From NCBI RefSeq assembly GCF_024159265.1, contig NZ_JAMYWY010000001.1:558001-622000 (forward strand): a stretch of DNA of 64,000 nt, written 5' to 3'. Positions within the stretch are counted from its first letter, which is position 1; each line of letters opens with the position of its first letter. Source of the stretch: Paenibacillus sp. 1781tsa1 (GTDB lineage Bacteria; Bacillota; Bacilli; Paenibacillales; Paenibacillaceae). This document shows positions 6,075-56,883 of this stretch, one piece after another. The translations under genes and the position numbers were made by a program. Below the pieces are notes generated by a model that saw nothing but the letters and a program-made list of their open reading frames with translations, did not search any database and was not told where the DNA came from.

Positions 6075-7537
6075 TGCCTGTCCCACTGGAAAGTACGGAT
6101 TATCATGATCTGAGAAGTAAATGGTATCGTGCGAGTCATGAACCCGGGTTGTTTGTCGTTGAAGGGACATCGGATGCAGTGAAGCATGAAATTCACAAAT
6201 TGACAACGCATTGGCAGGATAAAGCTATCCAAATCGCGGTTGATGATCCGTATGCTACTCTCCCGCTGATCTATCAATTAAGTCCGGTTAAACCCATAGA
6301 TGATCTTGTAGCATGTAAAAATGCGTTATTGAGATTCCAAAGATCAGGGTGGACACCTGGCAATAGGAAATGGGTTCTGATTGAAATATCTTCCTACCTT
6401 CACCCTGCGGATCTGGGAGCCATCCACTATATCCTGTATCGACAGAAATTAAGGGGAGTAAGTGTCGTACTTTTTTTTCATCGATATCCAACCATAGCGA
6501 GCAATCCTGAGGACATAGCCAAACTTCCGGTATCCCTTGTCAGGGATACGCCTGATCAGACCCGACGTTTGTTGGAGGAACATCTACGGATGGTAAGCAA
6601 GGATAAAGGGAAGGAGAAAGAGGCCGCATTGGCGCTCTATAACAGGCTGGCCTGGATTTTGTTGTCCAAATCGGATAATCCGGCCCGCTACAGGTCCTGT
6701 TTTCATTTCTTTGACCATAATTCGTTATTTCAACGTTTGTCAGTGACACAGCAGGCAGTACTCTGGTTTGAGCTGGGTCAGCTGTTGACCAAAAACGGGA
6801 AGTATTATGCCGAAGCACGACACTGTTATTCGAAAGCTCGGGAAATCCTTGCCCATGAAGAACTAACGGAAACGTATCGTACCGGGAAATGGGCTGCGCT
6901 TGATAATGGTGAAGCATTAATTGAGATGCAGGAGGGCAATGTAGAACGTGCAATTATGTTGGAGCGACAGGCGGGACAGCGTATACGACAGCTTCCTGAG
7001 GGACCTGATCAGCGAGTTTTTCAGATTCAGACCCTACTCAACATTGCGGGGTTGCAGCTCCGGGCGGGGCACTATGCAGAGGCAGGTAAGACGTTGCTGG
7101 CTGCGGAGAAGCGATGTGTTGATACGTATGCAGATTGGCTGGGGCATGTGCTGCAATTAAAAATGGTATTACATCAACAGCTTGGTGAGCAGGAGCAGGA
7201 ATACGAACTGTTGATTCAATTGTTACGTATGAAGACAAACACGGTCCATTCCAAACTGCTTGGCCGTGCGGTGGAAATCGCTGGCGCGCTGATTACTCAA
7301 GGGTTAGAGGAACGGGCATCCCGGGTGTACCGTCTATTGATGATGGGGCTGCCGGTTGCCAGTCTGCCACAGATCAGGTTGATTCGGGAAACATTAGGCA
7401 GACTGGGGACCGTTACGCCCCTAGATGCATACACGCAGGACCAGTATATTGATAAACTGGAATCGCAATTGGAGGGATGGGAGCAGTTAAAGAGCTGGAA
7501 TGAGAGGAGGAAATCCGGTTGGGTTATCCATTCCTGA
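6071..7537 (+). CDS. TPR-repeat protein of unknown function in the lanthipeptide operon
   Basis: A 488-residue soluble protein. Residues about 1-165 look like an alpha/beta domain with strands such as RKWVLIEISSYL and GVSVVLFFHRYP, reminiscent of the core of P-loop regulators, but I see no Walker A motif. From about residue 220 onward it consists of helical repeats with TPR-like spacing (ARHCYSKAREILAHEE, LLNIAGLQLRAGHYAEAGKTL). Its ATGATG start overlaps the GNAT stop (ATGA coupling) and its 3-prime end overlaps the peptidase gene. Co-translation with the modification enzymes suggests a scaffold, regulator or immunity role. I do not recognise a characterised family. Confidence 0.7.
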   Translation: MMPVPLESTDYHDLRSKWYRASHEPGLFVVEGTSDAVKHEIHKLTTHWQDKAIQIAVDDPYATLPLIYQLSPVKPIDDLVACKNALLRFQRSGWTPGNRKWVLIEISSYLHPADLGAIHYILYRQKLRGVSVVLFFHRYPTIASNPEDIAKLPVSLVRDTPDQTRRLLEEHLRMVSKDKGKEKEAALALYNRLAWILLSKSDNPARYRSCFHFFDHNSLFQRLSVTQQAVLWFELGQLLTKNGKYYAEARHCYSKAREILAHEELTETYRTGKWAALDNGEALIEMQEGNVERAIMLERQAGQRIRQLPEGPDQRVFQIQTLLNIAGLQLRAGHYAEAGKTLLAAEKRCVDTYADWLGHVLQLKMVLHQQLGEQEQEYELLIQLLRMKTNTVHSKLLGRAVEIAGALITQGLEERASRVYRLLMMGLPVASLPQIRLIRETLGRLGTVTPLDAYTQDQYIDKLESQLEGWEQLKSWNERRKSGWVIHS

Positions 7538-9273
7538 CACGAATGAGTGTGAATAAGGAACGAACGAGTATGCTATTGGGTTATGATGACAACACATGCG
7601 AATGGTGCAGTCTTGATGATACAGGCCGCATGGGTAGCCGGAAGATCCTCTCTGAACATGGGACGGAGTCAGAGCAGCACACGCAGCATATTCAGTTCAT
7701 TGGAAGGAACCAGGTTCTGGTGATTACACAGGACAAGGCGGGGAAATGGCTTCATATATACGAGAATGAGGAGCGAGCAATTCTGGTACAGAGCCGATTT
7801 GTGAAGTTTCCATTTCCTGTGATGCAAGCCGCGTGGCAAGAGGAGCGATTACTCCTGCTATTTTCCATTAGGAATCGGTCAGGGTCTGTTCGTATAGGTC
7901 TTTATGATCCGGAAAAGGATGAAGCGAGATGGGTTACTCCTGATCTGGATCAGCCGCAATTTGTATTCTGGTCTGCATCTACACGAGAGGTCGGCGTAAA
8001 CGTTGGTGGATTCGGAAGAGTGTATTCGTATTCCCAAGACATCCTTCCATCATCCGAAATCCCTTATACGGAGTATGCCTACCCTGTGATGGATAAGCAG
8101 GGTGACCTGGTAGCGGTATCGATTCCTGTGGAACATGGTTTCCAGCCTGGATGGATCAGGCAAGGAGAGGGATTGGTACATGTATGTTCAATGGATAGCG
8201 AACCCTTCTCTGAACTGATCAGAATGCAACTCGATGCACATCAACAGCTCGTCCTCTGTGAAGGGATAACCTGCGGCAGGTGGCAATATGTTCAATATAC
8301 ATTGGACAGAGAGAAGAGATTTGAGCTACGTGATTATCCGGGAATCTTGACACAGGCTGTGCTCAGCAGGGACAGGCAGGGATTGATCGGAAAATATGAA
8401 TCTATTGTCCGCCCTCCTGCGCCGGGAATATACCGTTTTTCAGAGCAAACGAGTACGAGTACCCCTTTCCCGATTGGGAGAGATGAGAGAACTGGCAACT
8501 ATCCTGGCGAGGAACCAGATGTAATCTATGGGAGGATTCGTTATGGACAAGACATGATTCCGTACATGGACATGCACCCGGAGGGTGCTGAACAGGTGGT
8601 TATCTATCTCCATGGGGGGCCTCATAATTGCCTGTTTGACAGCTTTAGTCCGGTCATCAGCGGATTATATCAGGCAGGAGTGCGGGTCATCGGGTTGAAC
8701 TATCCCGGCAGTTCAGGGTTTGGCACGGATTACAGGATGCTCATTCAGAACGACTGGGGCGGCGTGGATGCAGAAGTCATCCAGTTCATGCGGGAGCAGA
8801 TGTTATCTTCCTATTCAAACGTCTCTCTCTATGGCGTGAGCTATGGGGCTTATCTGGCATTGCTGGTAGCAGGTAAAAGTCCTGCGCTATGGAGTAATGT
8901 GGTTGCCTGTGCACCGTTCACAGATCTGGAAAGACTGTACGCAGGCGGAGGAGCGAAGCTGAGATCATTCTTGCAAACGGAAATCGGTGAGCTTTTGCAT
9001 GATCCATCTGCCCTGCGGGATCGAAGCCCAACAGCCTATGTATCCGGGCTCAGTGAGGTGAATATTCAATTCATTCACGGTCAGGAGGATCAATTGTGTC
9101 CTGTAGAGCAGACGGAGAGATTGTATCGGGACATTATGGAAAACAAGCGGTTGTCTGGAGCTGTAGGCAGGATTGAGCTTCATATCGAGGATATGGCGCA
9201 TGAAGCTTATTCGGAGCGAATCTGGGCGCAGAAGGCTGTTGATTTTCTAACCTACAGTAGAGTATCCACGTAA
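7519..9273 (+). CDS. S9-family prolyl-oligopeptidase-type serine peptidase, candidate leader peptidase
   Basis: A 584-residue protein with an N-terminal propeller-like half (to about residue 330) and a C-terminal alpha/beta-hydrolase domain. The oxyanion motif is YLHGGPH, the nucleophile is in GVSYG (Ser441), and the triad is completed by Asp524 (GQEDQL) and His561 (DMAHEAY). It starts at TTG 7519, placed by SD GAGGAGG (7504-7510), and overlaps the TPR gene by 19 nt. In the class III flavipeptin cluster an S9 peptidase (FlaP) removes the leader, so that role is likely here. However, the precursor has no proline, so cleavage would have to be acyl-aminoacyl-like or have another specificity. A terminator follows. 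Confidence 0.85.
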   Translation: MGYPFLTRMSVNKERTSMLLGYDDNTCEWCSLDDTGRMGSRKILSEHGTESEQHTQHIQFIGRNQVLVITQDKAGKWLHIYENEERAILVQSRFVKFPFPVMQAAWQEERLLLLFSIRNRSGSVRIGLYDPEKDEARWVTPDLDQPQFVFWSASTREVGVNVGGFGRVYSYSQDILPSSEIPYTEYAYPVMDKQGDLVAVSIPVEHGFQPGWIRQGEGLVHVCSMDSEPFSELIRMQLDAHQQLVLCEGITCGRWQYVQYTLDREKRFELRDYPGILTQAVLSRDRQGLIGKYESIVRPPAPGIYRFSEQTSTSTPFPIGRDERTGNYPGEEPDVIYGRIRYGQDMIPYMDMHPEGAEQVVIYLHGGPHNCLFDSFSPVISGLYQAGVRVIGLNYPGSSGFGTDYRMLIQNDWGGVDAEVIQFMREQMLSSYSNVSLYGVSYGAYLALLVAGKSPALWSNVVACAPFTDLERLYAGGGAKLRSFLQTEIGELLHDPSALRDRSPTAYVSGLSEVNIQFIHGQEDQLCPVEQTERLYRDIMENKRLSGAVGRIELHIEDMAHEAYSERIWAQKAVDFLTYSRVST

Positions 9274-50373: not shown

Positions 50374-51672
50374 ATGAAAAGAATGACGAAGTTGACGTTG
50401 CTTATGCTGATTGCTTTTGCGGTAATGCTCGCGGGATGTGGCAATGGGGACAAGAGTGGCAGTCCGGTCAACACAGATACTCAAGGTGGTAGCGAAGCTG
50501 CTGCCGGGGACAAAACGATTAAAATCTTCCAATTCAAAGTTGAAATTGCGGAAGCGCTTAACCGTCTCAAAGCGGAGTACGAATCCTCCCATCCAGGCGT
50601 CAAACTGGACATTCAAACTGTAGGTGGTGGTAGTGACTACGGTGCTGCATTGAAAGCCAAGTTTGCCGCAGGCGAACAACCGGACATTTTCAACGTAGGT
50701 GGATATCGTGAGCTGGATACATGGCTTGAATATCTGGAAGATCTGTCTGGGGAATCGTGGGCCAAAGATGCGCTCGAAGTAGCCAAAGAGCCAATGACCA
50801 AAGACGGCAAGCTCTATGGACAGCCGCTGGCGCTGGAAGGTTATGGCTTCATTTATAACAAAGACCTCTTCCAAAAAGCGGGTATTACCGAAATTCCAAC
50901 GACACTGGAACAGTTGGATCAAGCTGCACAGAAACTTCAAGCCGCAGGCATCACCCCGTTCTCGAACGGATATCAGGAGTGGTGGGTGCTGGGCAATCAT
51001 AACGTCAACGTCGCATTTGCAAATCAGGCAGATCCGGTGAAATTCATCCAGGGATTGAATGAAAGCACGGAGAAAATTCCTGGCAATCAGGTGTTCAACG
51101 ACTGGATTAACCTGCTCGACTTAACGCTGAAATATAGCAATAAAAACCCGCTGACAACCGACTACAATACGCAAGTTACGTTGTTTGCGAGTGGAGAAGC
51201 GGCGATGATGCAGCAAGGGAACTGGACTCAAGTACAGATCGATGGAATTGATCCGGATCTGAATCTGGGTATCCTGCCGATGCCAATTAACAATGAACCA
51301 AATGACAAATTGTTTGTCGGCGTGCCGAACTATTGGGTTGTGAACAAGAACTCTCAAGTGAAAACGGAAGCGAAAGAGTTCCTGGAGTGGCTCGTGACTT
51401 CGGATATCGGGAAACAATATATGACGAAAGAATTCAAATTCATTCCGGCGTTCAGTTCCATCACAGCATCCGAGGAGGATCTGGGTGACCTCGCCACAGA
51501 GATCATGAAGTATAGCCAGGCCAATAAAACACTGAGCTGGAACTTCAACCGTTTCCCTGAAGGGGTTCCACAAGAGTATGGCAGCACGATTCAGGCTTAC
51601 GTTGCAGGTAAATCGGATAAAGCCGGCTTGCTTGATGCATTACAACAGAACTGGGATAGTTTGAAAAAATAA
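50374..51672 (+). CDS. ABC sugar-binding lipoprotein (extracellular solute-binding protein family 1)
   Basis: 432 residues. The signal peptide LTLLMLIAFAVMLAGC ends in lipobox LAGC. The mature domain follows family 1 binding proteins: IKIFQFKVEIAEALNRLKAE, PDIFNVGGYREL, the GEAAMMQQGNWT segment (the G-x-A-A-M motif of sugar binders) and a C-terminal AYVAGKSDKAGLLDALQQNW. It delivers an oligosaccharide to the two permeases encoded upstream. SD GGGAGAG before ATG. A very strong terminator follows. Confidence 0.93.
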   Translation: MKRMTKLTLLMLIAFAVMLAGCGNGDKSGSPVNTDTQGGSEAAAGDKTIKIFQFKVEIAEALNRLKAEYESSHPGVKLDIQTVGGGSDYGAALKAKFAAGEQPDIFNVGGYRELDTWLEYLEDLSGESWAKDALEVAKEPMTKDGKLYGQPLALEGYGFIYNKDLFQKAGITEIPTTLEQLDQAAQKLQAAGITPFSNGYQEWWVLGNHNVNVAFANQADPVKFIQGLNESTEKIPGNQVFNDWINLLDLTLKYSNKNPLTTDYNTQVTLFASGEAAMMQQGNWTQVQIDGIDPDLNLGILPMPINNEPNDKLFVGVPNYWVVNKNSQVKTEAKEFLEWLVTSDIGKQYMTKEFKFIPAFSSITASEEDLGDLATEIMKYSQANKTLSWNFNRFPEGVPQEYGSTIQAYVAGKSDKAGLLDALQQNWDSLKK

Positions 51673-51720
51673 CAGGTCCCATCCACTCGTTTAATACATG
51701 TGGGAAGAAGAAAAAACATA

Positions 51721-51758
51721 AAAAAGGTGACTCCGGATGAATTGGAGTCACCTTTTTT
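51721..51758. terminator. Strong terminator after the sugar-binding protein gene
   Basis: AAAAAGGTGACTCC pairs with GGAGTCACCTTTTT, followed by more T. Confidence 0.92.
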
Positions 51759-51908
51759 AATGTGAAAATTTCCAGTTAGGAAGTGCCAGTAGGAATGAAT
51801 AGGACGACTAATACAGAAGGTGGAGGTGTTTGTATAATGTCTACAACCTGTTGTTAGTACACAATATGGCAACAAATAGCCAAAATTTAAATATTTGTAA
51901 TTTTTAGA

Positions 51909-51937
51909 TTGACAGCCCTTACCAATATCCATATTAT
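51909..51937 (+). promoter_or_regulatory. Near-consensus sigma-A promoter of the N-oxygenase/ATP-grasp operon
   Basis: TTGACA (51909-51914), exactly 17 nt, TATTAT (51932-51937); predicted start near 51944, leader about 45 nt. Upstream lies another TATAAT (51833-51838) followed at once by the inverted repeat ACAACctGTTGT (51843-51854), a possible operator or second start. Confidence 0.65.
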
Positions 51938-51988
51938 AGAAAAATATAGCAGAAAGTAAAGAAATTTGAATTGGAGGTGAAATTCTTT

Positions 51989-53212
51989 ATGAGGGATATC
52001 GTCTTTCTGTGTGACAAGCGAATGAACACCAAAACGGGGTTTATCGAAGCTTTGTCCAACATATCGGAAACAACCAATATTTTGTTGGTAGAACAGGGAT
52101 ATGAACAATTTTATTCCTTACCGGAAGGGTTGTTCAGTGCTGTGTTCGAAGTGGAAGATATTACTCGGATTGATCAGGTGGAAGAGGTTTTTGAGCGCAT
52201 TTTGGATGAATATGATGTGGAGCGCGTCATTGCCCCGACCGAAAATGTGGTGGAGACCGGTGGGTATCTCCGATCGCGTTTTGGCATACCTGGTATTCAA
52301 AAGAATCAGGCCGAGACGGTTCGGAACAAATGGATCATGAAGGAAACATTGCGGCAGGCGGGAATCCACACGTCACAGACGCGTATTGCGTCCAATGCAG
52401 TACAGATTAGAAAGATTGTCGCAGGCATTGGTTTTCCCATCATTATCAAACCGATTAGCGGCTGGGCGACGATCATGACGTACAGGCTCAATAATCAAGA
52501 GGAGCTTGAGCAGTATATCAGCCATTCCTGGAATCGGGAATCGGTGCTCATTGAGGAATTTATTACGGGTAGGGAGTTTCATATTGATTCGATCGTTTCA
52601 GAAGGTGAGCTTGTATTTTCCTCCGTCTCTGAATATTTGTTTAATTGTCTTGAGATTGTCCAAAATGATCGCCCTTCCGGCACGATCTGTTATCCCGCTA
52701 ACACACATTATGAATATGTGGAACGGATGCAGTCGTTCAATGAAGAGATCATACGGACACTGGGAATACGTAACAGTGTGTTCCATGCAGAAGTATTCCT
52801 TCTGCCGAATGGGGAGATCTGTTTTGGAGAGATTGGAGCACGAATTGGAGGCATTGTCATCATTCCACCTATGGTTTTGAATTCTCATCAGGTGAACTTG
52901 TTTGATGCGGCCATTCAAACGGAACTTGGGATATATGAAGCGCCAACCTTGGTTAATACAGGCAAGTATACCGGTGCGGTTAATTTCCCATCTGCTGTAG
53001 GCAAGATCGAAAGTATCTCATCAGCAGAAGATTTCAAATCGATGGAAGGACTCATTGATATCCGAATTAACTTTACATCGGGTCAGTCCATTTCAGGTGG
53101 TCGAGATACGATGTCCCGATCCGGATTTGCCATTGTGGAAGGTCCAGATATCGAATTCGTTAGAAAACAACTTCTAGAACTACATGACAAGTTTGTCCTG
53201 GTTCACCAATAA
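51989..53212 (+). CDS. ATP-grasp amino-acid/peptide ligase (first of two)
   Basis: 407 residues. The N-terminal pre-ATP-grasp domain is at about 1-110. The ATP-binding lobe has RNKWIMKETLRQAGI, FPIIIKPISG (ATP-binding Lys) and ESVLIEEFITGREFHIDSIV. The metal-binding segment is FHAEVFLLPNGEICFGEIGA followed by R-I-G-G. It resembles the carboxylate-amine ligases of dipeptide and amino-acid ligase type (BacD/CarB-like). It would activate a carboxylate as acyl-phosphate and couple it to an amine. ATG 51989 follows SD GGAGGTGA (51973-51980); TTG 51971 precedes it. First gene of a four-gene operon. Confidence 0.88.
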   Translation: MRDIVFLCDKRMNTKTGFIEALSNISETTNILLVEQGYEQFYSLPEGLFSAVFEVEDITRIDQVEEVFERILDEYDVERVIAPTENVVETGGYLRSRFGIPGIQKNQAETVRNKWIMKETLRQAGIHTSQTRIASNAVQIRKIVAGIGFPIIIKPISGWATIMTYRLNNQEELEQYISHSWNRESVLIEEFITGREFHIDSIVSEGELVFSSVSEYLFNCLEIVQNDRPSGTICYPANTHYEYVERMQSFNEEIIRTLGIRNSVFHAEVFLLPNGEICFGEIGARIGGIVIIPPMVLNSHQVNLFDAAIQTELGIYEAPTLVNTGKYTGAVNFPSAVGKIESISSAEDFKSMEGLIDIRINFTSGQSISGGRDTMSRSGFAIVEGPDIEFVRKQLLELHDKFVLVHQ

Positions 53213-53234
53213 ACCATTCTAGGAGGGCTTTGGG

Positions 53235-54287
53235 TTGTTGCTAGATAACGCTGATGTGAAGAGACTGGATAGTCATGATTGGAGAAAGCAAGAATTTGAG
53301 CATTTTGAAAAGGACATGACCAGTGAGAGTCCACGTTTTCCCTGCATATTCGGTTCCATGGGACTTAGCCGTAATGAGCTACGTTTCTCCTTTTTTGATG
53401 ATGTAGATGACCATTCCATAGAAGAACTGGGAAAGGCATTGAGAGAATACGTGGAACAGGCAAGGAGCTTTGGAAACTACACTTCCATGGTCACGTTCTT
53501 TAATATTGGTAAGGATCTATCCATCCATGAATATCAGCATATGTTTTGGTCCATCCTGACCCGGCTACACACCATTGACTTGAAAGAATGGCCTGAATTC
53601 ATACCGAATGAAGAGAATGATCCCTTGTGGGAATTTTGCTTTCATGGGGAACCCATTTTTGTCGTTTGTAACACACCAGCACATGAGGTCAGAAGGAGCA
53701 GACGTGCCAATACATACATGATTACCTTTCAACCCCGATGGGTCTTTGATTCGATTGGCTTAGGAACACCAAAAGGAGATAAATCCAAGGATTTGGTGCG
53801 AAGCTTGCTTCGGCAATACGATGCAATTGAACCATTCCCGCATCTAGGGATCTATGGGAATCCGAATAATCGAGAGTGGCTGCAATATTTTATTCCAGAT
53901 ACCAACGAAGTTTCCGCTACAGCGCAATGCCCATTTCATCATATGAGGAGGAATACTATGAGTTCAGTTCAATATATCAAAGGGTCTGACGTAACACTTG
54001 AAGAAGCTGTAATGCAATTGCTGCCTGTAACCGGTTCGGTAGAGGTACAAAGAGATACACCATTCAGGGAGCACAAATCCCATACCCATCCTACAGACGA
54101 GACACTTTTGATTATAAATGGAGATATTACCTTCTTCACTGAAGAAGGAGAACTGCATTGCACGCCTGGTGACCGCATTCTGCTTCCGGCTAATACGGTG
54201 CATTCCTCCAAAGCCGGGGAGAATGGAACGTTGTACATTATCGCTTTGGAGTTTGTGGAGCAGCCGAAAGAAGAGGTTCTGGCATGA
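53235..54287 (+). CDS. Fusion of YqcI/YcgG-family putative heme N-oxygenase with a cupin domain
   Basis: 350 residues in two domains. Residues 1-236 are a YqcI/YcgG protein: SPRFPCIFGSMGLSRNELRF (Cys37) through to ATAQCPFHH (Cys232). To my knowledge members of this family include heme-dependent N-oxygenases of arginine-like substrates (GntA of guanitoxin synthesis; DcsA is probably related). Residues 242-350 are a complete cupin with metal ligands His283, His285, Glu289 (SHTHPTDE) and His323 (PANTVHS). Start TTG 53235 is 7 nt after SD AGGAGGG. An N-oxygenase joined to a metal cupin parallels SznF, where the cupin rearranges an N-hydroxylated arginine into an N-nitroso group, though SznF uses a different oxygenase fold. 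ATGA overlap with the next ligase. Substrate and product are inference. Confidence 0.8.
   Translation: MLLDNADVKRLDSHDWRKQEFEHFEKDMTSESPRFPCIFGSMGLSRNELRFSFFDDVDDHSIEELGKALREYVEQARSFGNYTSMVTFFNIGKDLSIHEYQHMFWSILTRLHTIDLKEWPEFIPNEENDPLWEFCFHGEPIFVVCNTPAHEVRRSRRANTYMITFQPRWVFDSIGLGTPKGDKSKDLVRSLLRQYDAIEPFPHLGIYGNPNNREWLQYFIPDTNEVSATAQCPFHHMRRNTMSSVQYIKGSDVTLEEAVMQLLPVTGSVEVQRDTPFREHKSHTHPTDETLLIINGDITFFTEEGELHCTPGDRILLPANTVHSSKAGENGTLYIIALEFVEQPKEEVLA
53945..53960 (+). promoter_or_regulatory. Internal ribosome binding site and start codon for the cupin half
   Basis: GAGGAGGA (53945-53952) is followed after 5 nt by an in-frame ATG (53958-53960, Met242) exactly at the domain boundary. Free cupin (about 109 residues) could be made besides the fusion, or this is a relic of two formerly separate genes. 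Confidence 0.6.
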
Positions 54288-55552
54288 CTCGTTCCTCCGT
54301 TGGTTTGCTTATGAGAAAAGGTTTTTCTCTGCACGGGGATCATATTGAAGCTCTGGGGAGAATTTTCGAAGAGGTCCATTTATGGACCTCTGTTTCTGGA
54401 TATGAACAAGATCCGCGCTTTCGGTCTGTTCAGCATATTCCCAAGTACGAGAATGTGGAAGAAATGATCTTGCAGGCTAGACAATTAGGCGTTCCGTTTT
54501 TCATTACCTGGCAGGAAACGGATATTGTACTGAATGCGAGATTGAATGAAGGATTGGGAAGACAGGATATTCCTGTCCAAGCGGCCGAAATTGCCAGAGA
54601 CAAGTCCAGACAGCGTCAGTTCCTGAAGCAGGAGGACGTGGCCTGTCCTGAATTTTATGCTGTAAATACGTTGGATGAGGCTGTTTCAGCGGCGGCAAGT
54701 GTAGGCTATCCGGTTATTATTAAACCCACACTGGCCGCATCCAGCAGCCATGTTGCGCTCGTTCATTCGTATGCCGAATTGAAGGAGGCCTTCGATAGTA
54801 TCTCGCAACTTGCCATTTCGCAATCGGAGCTATATTTTGACGAGGAATGTCCTGCAATAGCGCTGATTGAAGAGTTCCTGCCCGGGGAAGAGATTACGCT
54901 GGATGGCGTAGTTGTGAATGGACGGTTTTATCTGGGCGGAGTCCATAACAAGCTCAGAATGCCAGGTCCTTACTTTGAAGAGGATGAATATACGCTACCT
55001 TTTCAGGGAGAATCCAATGTGGAACAAGAACTTTGCGAGATGGCTCAGCAAATATGCACAGGTCTGAAACTTGTAAATGGGCTGTTTAACGTTGAAGCCA
55101 GGCAGAACGCCAATGATGAGTATAAAGTGGTGGAGTTCAGCTGCCGTATCAGTGGTGGGCATGTCTATCGCAATATTCGTGATGTGTACGGCACTGATCT
55201 GGTGACCGCCCACGCTTATGGTCTTCAGGGGGAGGAGAAGTTGGCTGCCCATTTTGCGAAAAGAACGGCTCCCAAGTGCGCAACCTGTATCAAATTTGTA
55301 TACCGTGATGGCAAGGTGTTGAATAATGCCAGCGGTGAGGCAGCAGACGATGTGAGGTACCGGGCGTATTATCCGGTTGCTGCCAAAGGTAGAGTGGTTC
55401 ATTCTGCTCCGAAGGGATTCGATATTACAGGTCTGTTGTCTGTACGTACCAAATATCAGGGTCCTGAGGACATCGAATCGGTAAAACAAGCCGCAAGATT
55501 GCTGGAACAAAAGCTGGATTTGCAAGTTGCTGAGGTGAGACAGCTTCAATGA
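54284..55552 (+). CDS. ATP-grasp ligase (second of two)
   Basis: 422 residues. ARDKSRQRQFLKQEDVACPE, then GYPVIIKPTLAASSSHVALV (ATP-binding Lys), ALIEEFLPGEEITLDGVVVN and the acid residues in FNVEARQN and VVEFSCRISGG. The usual E-x-N-x-R metal motif is E-F-S-C-R here, with Ser for Asn. It is closest in pattern to carboxylate-amine ligases of ATP-grasp type 4/CarB-like. Coupled by ATGA overlap to the N-oxygenase/cupin gene and to the MFS gene. Two different ligases in one operon suggest a product with two amide or related bonds, or a ligation of an N-oxygenated unit to amino acids. Confidence 0.87.
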   Translation: MTRSSVGLLMRKGFSLHGDHIEALGRIFEEVHLWTSVSGYEQDPRFRSVQHIPKYENVEEMILQARQLGVPFFITWQETDIVLNARLNEGLGRQDIPVQAAEIARDKSRQRQFLKQEDVACPEFYAVNTLDEAVSAAASVGYPVIIKPTLAASSSHVALVHSYAELKEAFDSISQLAISQSELYFDEECPAIALIEEFLPGEEITLDGVVVNGRFYLGGVHNKLRMPGPYFEEDEYTLPFQGESNVEQELCEMAQQICTGLKLVNGLFNVEARQNANDEYKVVEFSCRISGGHVYRNIRDVYGTDLVTAHAYGLQGEEKLAAHFAKRTAPKCATCIKFVYRDGKVLNNASGEAADDVRYRAYYPVAAKGRVVHSAPKGFDITGLLSVRTKYQGPEDIESVKQAARLLEQKLDLQVAEVRQLQ

Positions 55553-56781
55553 TACAGACTATTTTATTCATCCTCTTCCTGTCCATTACCTTATGTGGAG
55601 ATACCATTCTAAACATTACCCTGATCTGGTCGGTACTGGAGCAGGGTGGGTCGATTACTCATCTGAGTATTATTATTACGATCATGAGTTTGATACCTAT
55701 TTTATTGCAGAAGTATAGCTTTTTTCTTAAAACTGCACTTAAAGAACGACCCTTGCTAATTTTCAGCTTAGCGCGCATCCTGGGTATTGTGTTTCTTCTT
55801 GTGTTTTTAATTCAATTTGCCGGCAATACCAATGTGTATGGCTTATATCTGATTGGTGGCGTATTCTCCGTGATTCTGTTTTTGACCAATCAGAGTCTGG
55901 AAATCTACATGTCCCAGATGGTGTTGGATGGGAAAATCAAATCACACAAGGCCTCGCATGACTTGCAGACGGCAATTCAGATTGGTGCATTTGGAGGAAG
56001 TGCGGTAACTGGAGTTTTGCTCAGTATAGGCGGACTGCCAATGATCTCAACGGTACTGATGGTGACGCTGGCTGTGGGGATGATGGCTCCATGGCTCATT
56101 CCAATTCTGTCCCGATCCGGTCAGGCTGAGCAGAACGTACAGAAAGAAAAAACGGAGGCTCCGCAGATTACCTACTCCGACGCTGTGCGAAAAAAAGTAC
56201 TGAACATGACCATATTGGCGGTGGTTGTATTAACCGTGCAATTGGGAGCAATCAATTTTATCGTACCAATTTTGTTCCATGATATCTACAATTGGGATTC
56301 ATCCCGTTACGGGGCTATCGGAGCTGCGATGGGGCTTGGGGCCTTTCTTGCAACGCTGATTCGTAAGTGGGAACACCGAATTCCAATGTATCTATTTATA
56401 CTGATCGGTGTTATTGATATCATCATTGGCACGGTACAGGTGTTTGCGGTGTCGTTAATCTGTGGATTTATGCTTGGGTTTGTGTTTAATCGGACTCGTA
56501 TTATGCAAAGATCAGTCATGTTTGATAACTTGCGCAGTCGTGAAGAGACCATGAAGTGGTCGGGAAGATCAACATTTGCCACTCAATTCACAAGATCTGT
56601 TGTCCCGCTGGTACTGGCACTACCGCTGTCCCTTATGGGGCAGGAGAACACAGGCGTGCTGTTAGGAGCAATCGGTGTTACGGTGACGATAATCCTGTTT
56701 GTCGCCATAAGGCTGGAGAACAGATTGCCACTTCAAGGCACCGAGTCGATTATTGCCGGGGACAGTAAACCTTCGATTTGA
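55549..56781 (+). CDS. MFS transporter, probable exporter of the operon product
   Basis: 410 residues, about 12 TM helices, with a cytoplasmic charged loop near residue 195 (EQNVQKEKTEAPQITY). It has the pattern of drug/metabolite exporters (EntS/MefA-like) rather than sugar importers. ATGA overlap with the preceding ligase places it firmly in the biosynthetic operon, so export of or resistance to the product is likely. A terminator follows 45 nt after its stop. Confidence 0.85.
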   Translation: MIQTILFILFLSITLCGDTILNITLIWSVLEQGGSITHLSIIITIMSLIPILLQKYSFFLKTALKERPLLIFSLARILGIVFLLVFLIQFAGNTNVYGLYLIGGVFSVILFLTNQSLEIYMSQMVLDGKIKSHKASHDLQTAIQIGAFGGSAVTGVLLSIGGLPMISTVLMVTLAVGMMAPWLIPILSRSGQAEQNVQKEKTEAPQITYSDAVRKKVLNMTILAVVVLTVQLGAINFIVPILFHDIYNWDSSRYGAIGAAMGLGAFLATLIRKWEHRIPMYLFILIGVIDIIIGTVQVFAVSLICGFMLGFVFNRTRIMQRSVMFDNLRSREETMKWSGRSTFATQFTRSVVPLVLALPLSLMGQENTGVLLGAIGVTVTIILFVAIRLENRLPLQGTESIIAGDSKPSI

Positions 56782-56826
56782 AGGAGGTAAACAGTTATTA
56801 AAGATTGGGAAATGAAGTGTATGGAG

Positions 56827-56863
56827 GGTCAGCCAGATACGTTCTGGTTGACCTTTTTTTTTT
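56827..56863 (+). terminator. Terminator of the N-oxygenase/ATP-grasp operon
   Basis: GGTCAGCCAGA pairs with TCTGGTTGACC, followed by ten T. Confidence 0.92.
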
Positions 56864-56883
56864 GGTGGTTCAACCGGAAGAAA

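Follow-up and report, generated by a model that had tools for sequence, protein, structure and literature searches.

The operon and its signals

The window analysed here, a stretch of 64,000 nucleotides (558001-622000) of the Paenibacillus sp. 1781tsa1 contig NZ_JAMYWY010000001.1, carries an operon of four genes in one direction, the second of which joins a predicted heme domain of the YqcI/YcgG family to a cupin in a single chain. In order, and all on the + strand, these are an ATP-grasp ligase resembling the L-amino acid ligase RizA (ligase 1, 51989..53212), the YqcI-cupin fusion of 350 residues (53235..54287), a second, BacD-like ATP-grasp ligase (ligase 2, 54284..55552), and a predicted exporter of the major facilitator superfamily (MFS; 55549..56781). 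ATGA overlaps at 54284 and 55549 link the second gene to the third and the third to the fourth. A first-pass annotation, made from the letters of the window alone, had described four head-to-tail genes of which the last three are joined by ATGA overlaps, and the coordinates of the open reading frames bear this out. The T10 terminator that it named is present as well, as an intrinsic terminator with a stem of 15 pairs and then T10 (56823..56857, +). Its near-consensus promoter stands in part. The promoter-like site TTGACA-17-TATTAT (51909..51937, +) exists, with 11 of 12 consensus matches, and ranks at the top of 16 sites in its region, but the shuffled region averages 15.5 sites, so that the site is weak evidence for a promoter. 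For ligase 1, the listed open reading frame starts at TTG 51971, and an alternative ATG at 51989, which stands 8 nt past GGAGGTGA, is probably the true start. No Rfam family reaches its gathering score between 51500 and 57300.

The YqcI domain and the cupin

Domain assignments in this work are Pfam matches unless we say otherwise. Residues 28-235 of the fusion protein match YqcI_YcgG (PF08892) with an E-value (E) of 3.7e-67 and 226.7 bits against a cut-off of 27, and the family assignment made from the letters alone is thus confirmed by profile search. We annotate residues 1-235 (53235..53939, +) as a predicted heme N-oxygenase domain with Cys37 as the predicted heme ligand. The first-pass annotation had named GntA as an example of the heme N-oxygenases in this family; the family is right, but membership in GntA itself is rejected (NF041366, 61.7 bits against an equivalog cut-off of 145), and the nearest characterised relative is AglA. 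Here and below, statements about published systems follow the portions of the cited papers available to us. AglA hydroxylates an arginyl side chain, and its heme cysteine and pocket comprise C44, F152, R166, Q177, R179, F182, K196, R200 and Q228 (PMC12866846). In an alignment-based mapping with the letters checked, these residues fall onto C37, F142, R156, Q166, R168, F171, K185, R189 and Q217 of the fusion. Judged by alignment, the domain keeps the heme-ligating cysteine and an AglA-type pocket, and we infer that it binds heme through the thiolate of Cys37. AglA also has a lysine, K225, that binds the phosphonate, and its K225E variant gains N-delta-hydroxylation of free L-arginine (PMC12866846). 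The corresponding position is E214 in the fusion, and is a glutamate in all 12 aligned YqcI.

The cupin domain (53958..54287, +) is recognised through AraC_binding, its best Pfam match, at 29.2 bits and over the cut-off; Cupin_2 scores 25.1 bits, below its cut-off of 27.2. The complete His3-Glu metal site claimed for it is there: the ligands H283, H285, E289 and H323 are kept in 29/29 aligned pair cupins, and so are E270, Q272, D274 and H280 (the alignment has 29 rows, a thirtieth, L143, having been dropped for a stop inside). The AlphaFold2 model of the fusion has a predicted local distance difference test score (pLDDT) of 84, with the linker 235-243 below 50. At this seam the codons spell AGGAGG (53946..53951, +), a Shine-Dalgarno sequence 6 nt before the cupin ATG at 53958, and the segment 53946-53960 is retained in 7/7 fusion genomes. 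Since the cupin keeps its own Shine-Dalgarno sequence and ATG, the gene may have a dual output, the 350-residue fusion and a free cupin.

The ligases and the exporter

ATP-grasp_4 is over its cut-off in both ligases, and LAL_C2 is also over its cut-off in ligase 1. The best PDB match of ligase 1 is 4wd3 (E 6e-30), which is RizA (PMC6920838), and that of ligase 2 is BacD, 3wo1 (E 3e-20). Both proteins thus combine an ATP-grasp domain over cut-off with closest solved relatives that are L-amino acid ligases, and the earlier claim of two different ATP-grasp ligases agrees with these distinct best matches. Neither belongs to a named equivalog: ligases 1 and 2 score 71.4 and 60.4 bits for DdaF (cut-off 840), and 29.2 and 65.0 bits for BacD (cut-off 850). 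The fourth gene is just over the MFS_1 cut-off (33.8 bits against 33.4). At E<=0.001, none of the four operon proteins has a heme-oxygenase-like diiron domain, and the phosphonate gene PepM is not found among the four operon genes and the next two downstream, the rest of the genome being unsearched. In a plasmid search with ligase 2, the best 15 of 137 matches are at most 32% identical, and none of these 15 names a YqcI (their neighbour genes were unopened).

Distribution in the genus

The fusion is present in 7/75 Paenibacillus genomes, and in 7/7 of them all four genes are adjacent. The seven are the window's own genome and those of L003-L005 and L184-L187, where L005 and L187 are one genome. 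The fusion protein is 95-97% identical in P. amylolyticus, Paenibacillus sp. SZ31 and P. polymyxa ISL-58, in the same operon. Apparent frameshifts, possibly sequencing errors, split several operon or flanking genes in G052 and G005 (L184, L186).

Comparison with relatives that lack the operon delimits the cassette. The TetR gene downstream of the operon has a match at E<=1e-60 in 46/75 genomes of the genus, 39 of them without the operon, and in 10/10 of these 39 that we examined the sugar-binding-protein gene found upstream of the operon adjoins TetR. In blastn comparisons with five operon-less relatives, homology ends at 51672 and restarts at 56880, with 187-245 bp in between, which places the whole cassette at 51673..56879. 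In the empty site of L174, the short gap holds a terminator-like sequence that by eye resembles the operon's own; because of this similarity, the operon was probably inserted between the sugar-binding-protein gene and its terminator. Gain by entry at this point is the probable history of the cassette, and its loss in the relatives is the less probable one.

The YqcI-cupin pair beyond Paenibacillus

The fusion is one of two forms, and most relatives examined have the pair as two genes. YqcI and cupin are separate overlapping genes in Priestia, Bacillus sp. FJAT-14578, Gluconacetobacter and Bartonella, and separate adjacent genes on Rhodobacterales plasmids. Rhodoferax antarcticus carries a plasmid-borne YqcI-cupin fusion of its own, so that fusions occur in two distant lineages. 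In all clusters examined the cupin adjoins a YqcI gene or its remnant, one Bartonella fragment excepted. The cupin profile is found in 2/398 genomes of a phylum sample, 6/295 of a family sample (all of the host genus), 14/16 of a Priestia family sample, 13/71 Bartonella genomes (12/71 have the pair, often broken), and 4/385 of an Alphaproteobacteria sample, centre included. A plasmid search with the fusion protein gives 48 records. Among the best 40 of these 48, H1-H13 match both halves at >40% identity (the YqcI of H13 is truncated), and H1, H2, H4, H7, H11 and H13 were inspected at the locus level. Two further plasmid matches, H14 and H17, extend into the cupin half with 27-32% identity and are candidate pairs, of which H17 was likewise inspected at the locus level. 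H14 is a Haladaptatus halobius plasmid whose YqcI match (query 1-295, 32% identity) adjoins a hypothetical protein, possibly an archaeal pair.

In a maximum-likelihood tree, 29 cupin-partnered YqcI are split from 29 solo YqcI by one branch with support 98/91. A single change of cupin partnership suffices on this tree, and 0/500 shuffles do as well. The solo rows are 24 of 68 solo loci plus five solo loci of the genus (three further genus loci gave no row), and several pair loci are left out (near copies, broken Bartonella copies). As the solo rows are all from Bacillota and many rows are near copies, the result applies to this sample, in which the aligned cupin-partnered YqcI form one lineage. 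The 1781tsa1 genome has a second, solo YqcI (G000:C1:3970640-3971281, L001), which falls in the solo branch.

The neighbours of the pair differ between groups. All 14 cupin-bearing genomes of the Priestia family have YqcI, cupin and an isochorismatase-like hydrolase together, and 12/14 have a divergent LysE transporter upstream; at one Priestia locus (L006), Pfam identifies LysE and the hydrolase around the pair and no ligase. The order Lrp/AsnC regulator, YqcI, cupin, amino-acid permease is seen in two Thioclava, one Leisingera, one other Rhodobacterales plasmid and three alphaproteobacteria. Next to the Rhodoferax fusion are a permease, a 2-oxoglutarate oxygenase and a LysE of lysine/arginine type, which matches the L-lysine exporter model at 1e-35 and the ArgO model at 1e-28, both below the cut-offs. 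For the Rhodoferax and Rhodobacterales plasmids that we examined, the annotation shows no ATP-grasp gene next to the pair. Bartonella has the order MFS, ATP-grasp, YqcI, cupin, in any state, at 12/13 loci (L134-L146), the thirteenth being a cupin fragment only. In 8/13 of them YqcI is absent or its frame is split, and a stop seems to interrupt it in a further one; the cluster appears to be decaying in most carriers, with the ligase and exporter mostly still aligning in one piece. Searched against the 7.08-Mb genome of 1781tsa1, the Bartonella MFS has the operon MFS as its sole match at E<=1e-3 (E 2.4e-26), and the Bartonella ATP-grasp likewise has only ligase 1 (E 7.1e-6). Because the Bartonella cluster holds homologous genes, the operon neighbours are kept across phyla. 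The first-pass annotation had proposed conservation of the fusion's neighbours as a check, and ATP-grasp and MFS accompany the pair as far as Bartonella.

A control with solo YqcI separates neighbours that go with the pair from those that go with YqcI. Relatives of the cluster ATP-grasp lie within 5 kb of 8/12 pair loci (3 Paenibacillus, 5 Bartonella) and of 0/68 solo YqcI loci; the queries come from the pair clusters, which means that the control could overlook an unrelated ATP-grasp gene close to a solo YqcI, and 9/80 loci hold <3 kb on one side. Within the same distance of the 68 solo loci, we find LysE at 16 and relatives of the isochorismatase-like hydrolase at 14, which means that these two go with YqcI generally and not with the cupin. 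This occurrence near solo YqcI is also why we abandoned a reading in which the cupin forms a urea and the Priestia hydrolase then splits it. At ten Bacillales loci (L012, L032, L037, L039, L044, L047, L057, L062, L065, L070) a solo YqcI directly follows a LysE on the same strand at ~130-300 bp. Such LysE-solo YqcI loci suggest that an N-oxidised basic amino acid is made and exported without a cupin.

Proposed pathway and alternatives

The gene set, its domains, the retained catalytic residues, the one pair lineage and the linkage across phyla are observed, and from them we infer the heme, substrate, cupin reaction, product and role. We give a probability of about one half to a reading in which the product of the operon is an exported short peptide, one residue of which derives from arginine and has been N-oxidised and then processed by the cupin. 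In this pathway the heme domain, by P450-like chemistry at the Cys37 thiolate, would hydroxylate arginine, probably as the free amino acid, at one of its guanidine nitrogens, a step that we hold to be very probable. The cupin, either tethered or separately made, would take the hydroxyguanidine directly and rearrange it with its bound metal. The RizA-like and BacD-like ligases would join the modified residue to ordinary amino acids, and the MFS protein would carry the product out of the cell, where it might act as a metal ligand or as a 'Trojan horse' antimetabolite; a peptide and its export are quite likely. The first-pass annotation had seen in the operon a pathway to a small N-hydroxy or N-N bonded peptide, a view that is supported in part, with the N-N product a hypothesis. 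Clusters of this peptide type, with RizA- and BacD-related ligases and an MFS exporter, resemble known dipeptide antibiotic systems. Those of amino-acid type, which have no ATP-grasp, point to a product that the pair can make by itself, most likely from arginine, and that is worth exporting. In the 1970s, N5-hydroxy-L-arginine from Bacillus was reportedly described as an antimetabolite, a report that our literature search did not return.

What the cupin does is the point at which the explanations diverge. Its invariant residues, the metal site together with E270, Q272, D274 and H280 (29/29), its adjacency to YqcI and the two distant fusions suggest an enzyme that acts on the YqcI product, and we consider this probable. 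The same features speak against an account that is possible though doubtful, in which the finished peptide would carry plain N-hydroxyarginine, like argolaphos, and the cupin stabilises, reduces or trims the hydroxyguanidine, or binds or regulates, with no N-N bond made. That account draws on AglA, the nearest characterised enzyme, whose product is an N-hydroxyarginine residue and whose cluster includes ATP-grasp and MFS (PMC8976061, PMC12866846), and on the cupin itself, which falls among generic cupins with AraC_binding as its best Pfam match.

If the cupin does act on the hydroxyguanidine, the likeliest single outcome would be an N-N bond of the N-nitroso type, as in SznF, which we propose tentatively, with the odds somewhat against it. 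The analogy is with chalkophomycin, where the YqcI enzyme ChmN forms dihydroxyarginine, which an SznF-like cupin partner is proposed to receive; the activity of this partner was not reconstituted (PMC10849742). By this analogy the cupin here may perform an N-N rearrangement. The cupin shows no particular closeness to SznF over other cupins. It matches SznF at E 0.008 in profile comparison, hhalign against an SznF homologue of Tistrella gives a probability of 21%, and neither these two comparisons nor those of fold set SznF apart from other cupins. SznF also carries H-x-H-x3-E, a motif common in cupins.

A different N-N route would have a zinc cupin like that of RHS1 or PyrN. An ATP-grasp would build an O-aminoacyl ester at the hydroxylated nitrogen, which the cupin would then rearrange to a hydrazine. 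The RHS1/PyrN route needs a ligase to esterify the hydroxylamine first (PMC8664883). We think it improbable here, as pair clusters without ATP-grasp exist (Rhodoferax, Rhodobacterales plasmids, Priestia L006) and RHS1 has Asp at the place of the first His of the pair cupins. Least likely is a two-part analogue of nitric oxide synthase, in which N-omega-hydroxyarginine formed by YqcI would be broken down oxidatively by the cupin to citrulline and NO or HNO: chemistry alone speaks for it, thiolate-heme N-hydroxylation of arginine being the first step of nitric oxide synthase and iron cupins including dioxygenases, and the exporters, plus the ligases in Paenibacillus and Bartonella, suggest that the useful product is the amino acid itself.

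Returning to the cupin-processed arginine residue, its most far-reaching form, which we offer tentatively and with the odds against it, is that YqcI and a small cupin are a second, independently assembled N-N-forming machine, the heme/cupin counterpart of SznF, turning arginine into an N-nitroso-type amino acid. It would exist as two genes in Bacillota and Pseudomonadota, would have been fused at least twice (Paenibacillus, Rhodoferax), and would feed both free amino-acid export and ligase-built peptides.

Comparison with known systems

Our search of the open-access literature returned no description of a YqcI-fused cupin, of a YqcI with a bare cupin, or of this operon, in line with the first-pass view that no cluster with this set had been described; similar operon logic had, though, been predicted in 2010 (PMC2922099). 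PMC10849742 and PMC2922099 name YqcI or YcgG plus a cupin, and the portions available to us describe no YqcI-cupin fusion or bare-cupin pair. That a heme YqcI can stand in place of the SznF oxygenase domain is already published for chalkophomycin (PMC10849742). New here are a YqcI-cupin pairing wider than the fusion, the retained internal cupin start, and the cross-phylum cluster. As the pair is found in 14/16 Priestia-family and 12/71 Bartonella genomes, these familiar bacteria may make a metabolite that has yet to be described.

The operons predicted in PMC2922099 likewise have an oxygenase and a cupin with one or two ATP-grasp ligases and a possible exporter, but their oxygenase is diiron and comes with a Rieske protein, where this operon has a heme YqcI and no Rieske. 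The ligases are homologous to those of the dipeptide antibiotics bacilysin (BacD) and rhizocticin (RizA) (PMC6920838, PMC9321006); they lie far below the BacD and DdaF equivalog cut-offs, and the warhead is different. The argolaphos cluster (AglA/AlpD) shares a YqcI arginine N-hydroxylase with ATP-grasp and MFS and provides the closest solved structure (PMC8976061, PMC12866846), but it is a phosphonate pathway with AMPn-Arg as substrate, and its gene table, as available to us, names no cupin. SznF, the N-nitrosourea synthase of streptozotocin, also unites an N-oxygenase and a C-terminal cupin in one chain acting on an arginine-type substrate. It differs in its diiron heme-oxygenase-like domain, where we find the YqcI fold, and the sequences of the two cupins show no specific relationship. 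We also note that a Tistrella mobilis 'hypothetical protein' (L126 5386-6813) is an SznF homologue (E 1e-31) without the cupin Glu, adjoined by an unannotated YqcI-like coding stretch (7001-7966); a plasmid search with this homologue gives 5 records.

The nearest parallels are chalkophomycin (ChmN and ChmM) and gramibactin (GrbE and GrbD), in which a YqcI heme enzyme also oxidises arginine, as shown for ChmN and proposed for GrbE, and the partner cupin is proposed to form the N-N bond (PMC10849742, PMC11705231). In those systems the cupin follows a diiron domain resembling that of SznF, which in ChmM is inactive, and the product enters nonribosomal peptide synthetase/polyketide synthase lines. 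In contrast, the operon described here pairs or fuses YqcI with a bare cupin of ~110 residues and adds ATP-grasp ligases. Oxygenase and cupin here share a single 350-residue chain in which no dead diiron domain separates them, and the fusion thus makes it directly testable whether a bare cupin can turn hydroxyarginine into an N-N bond.

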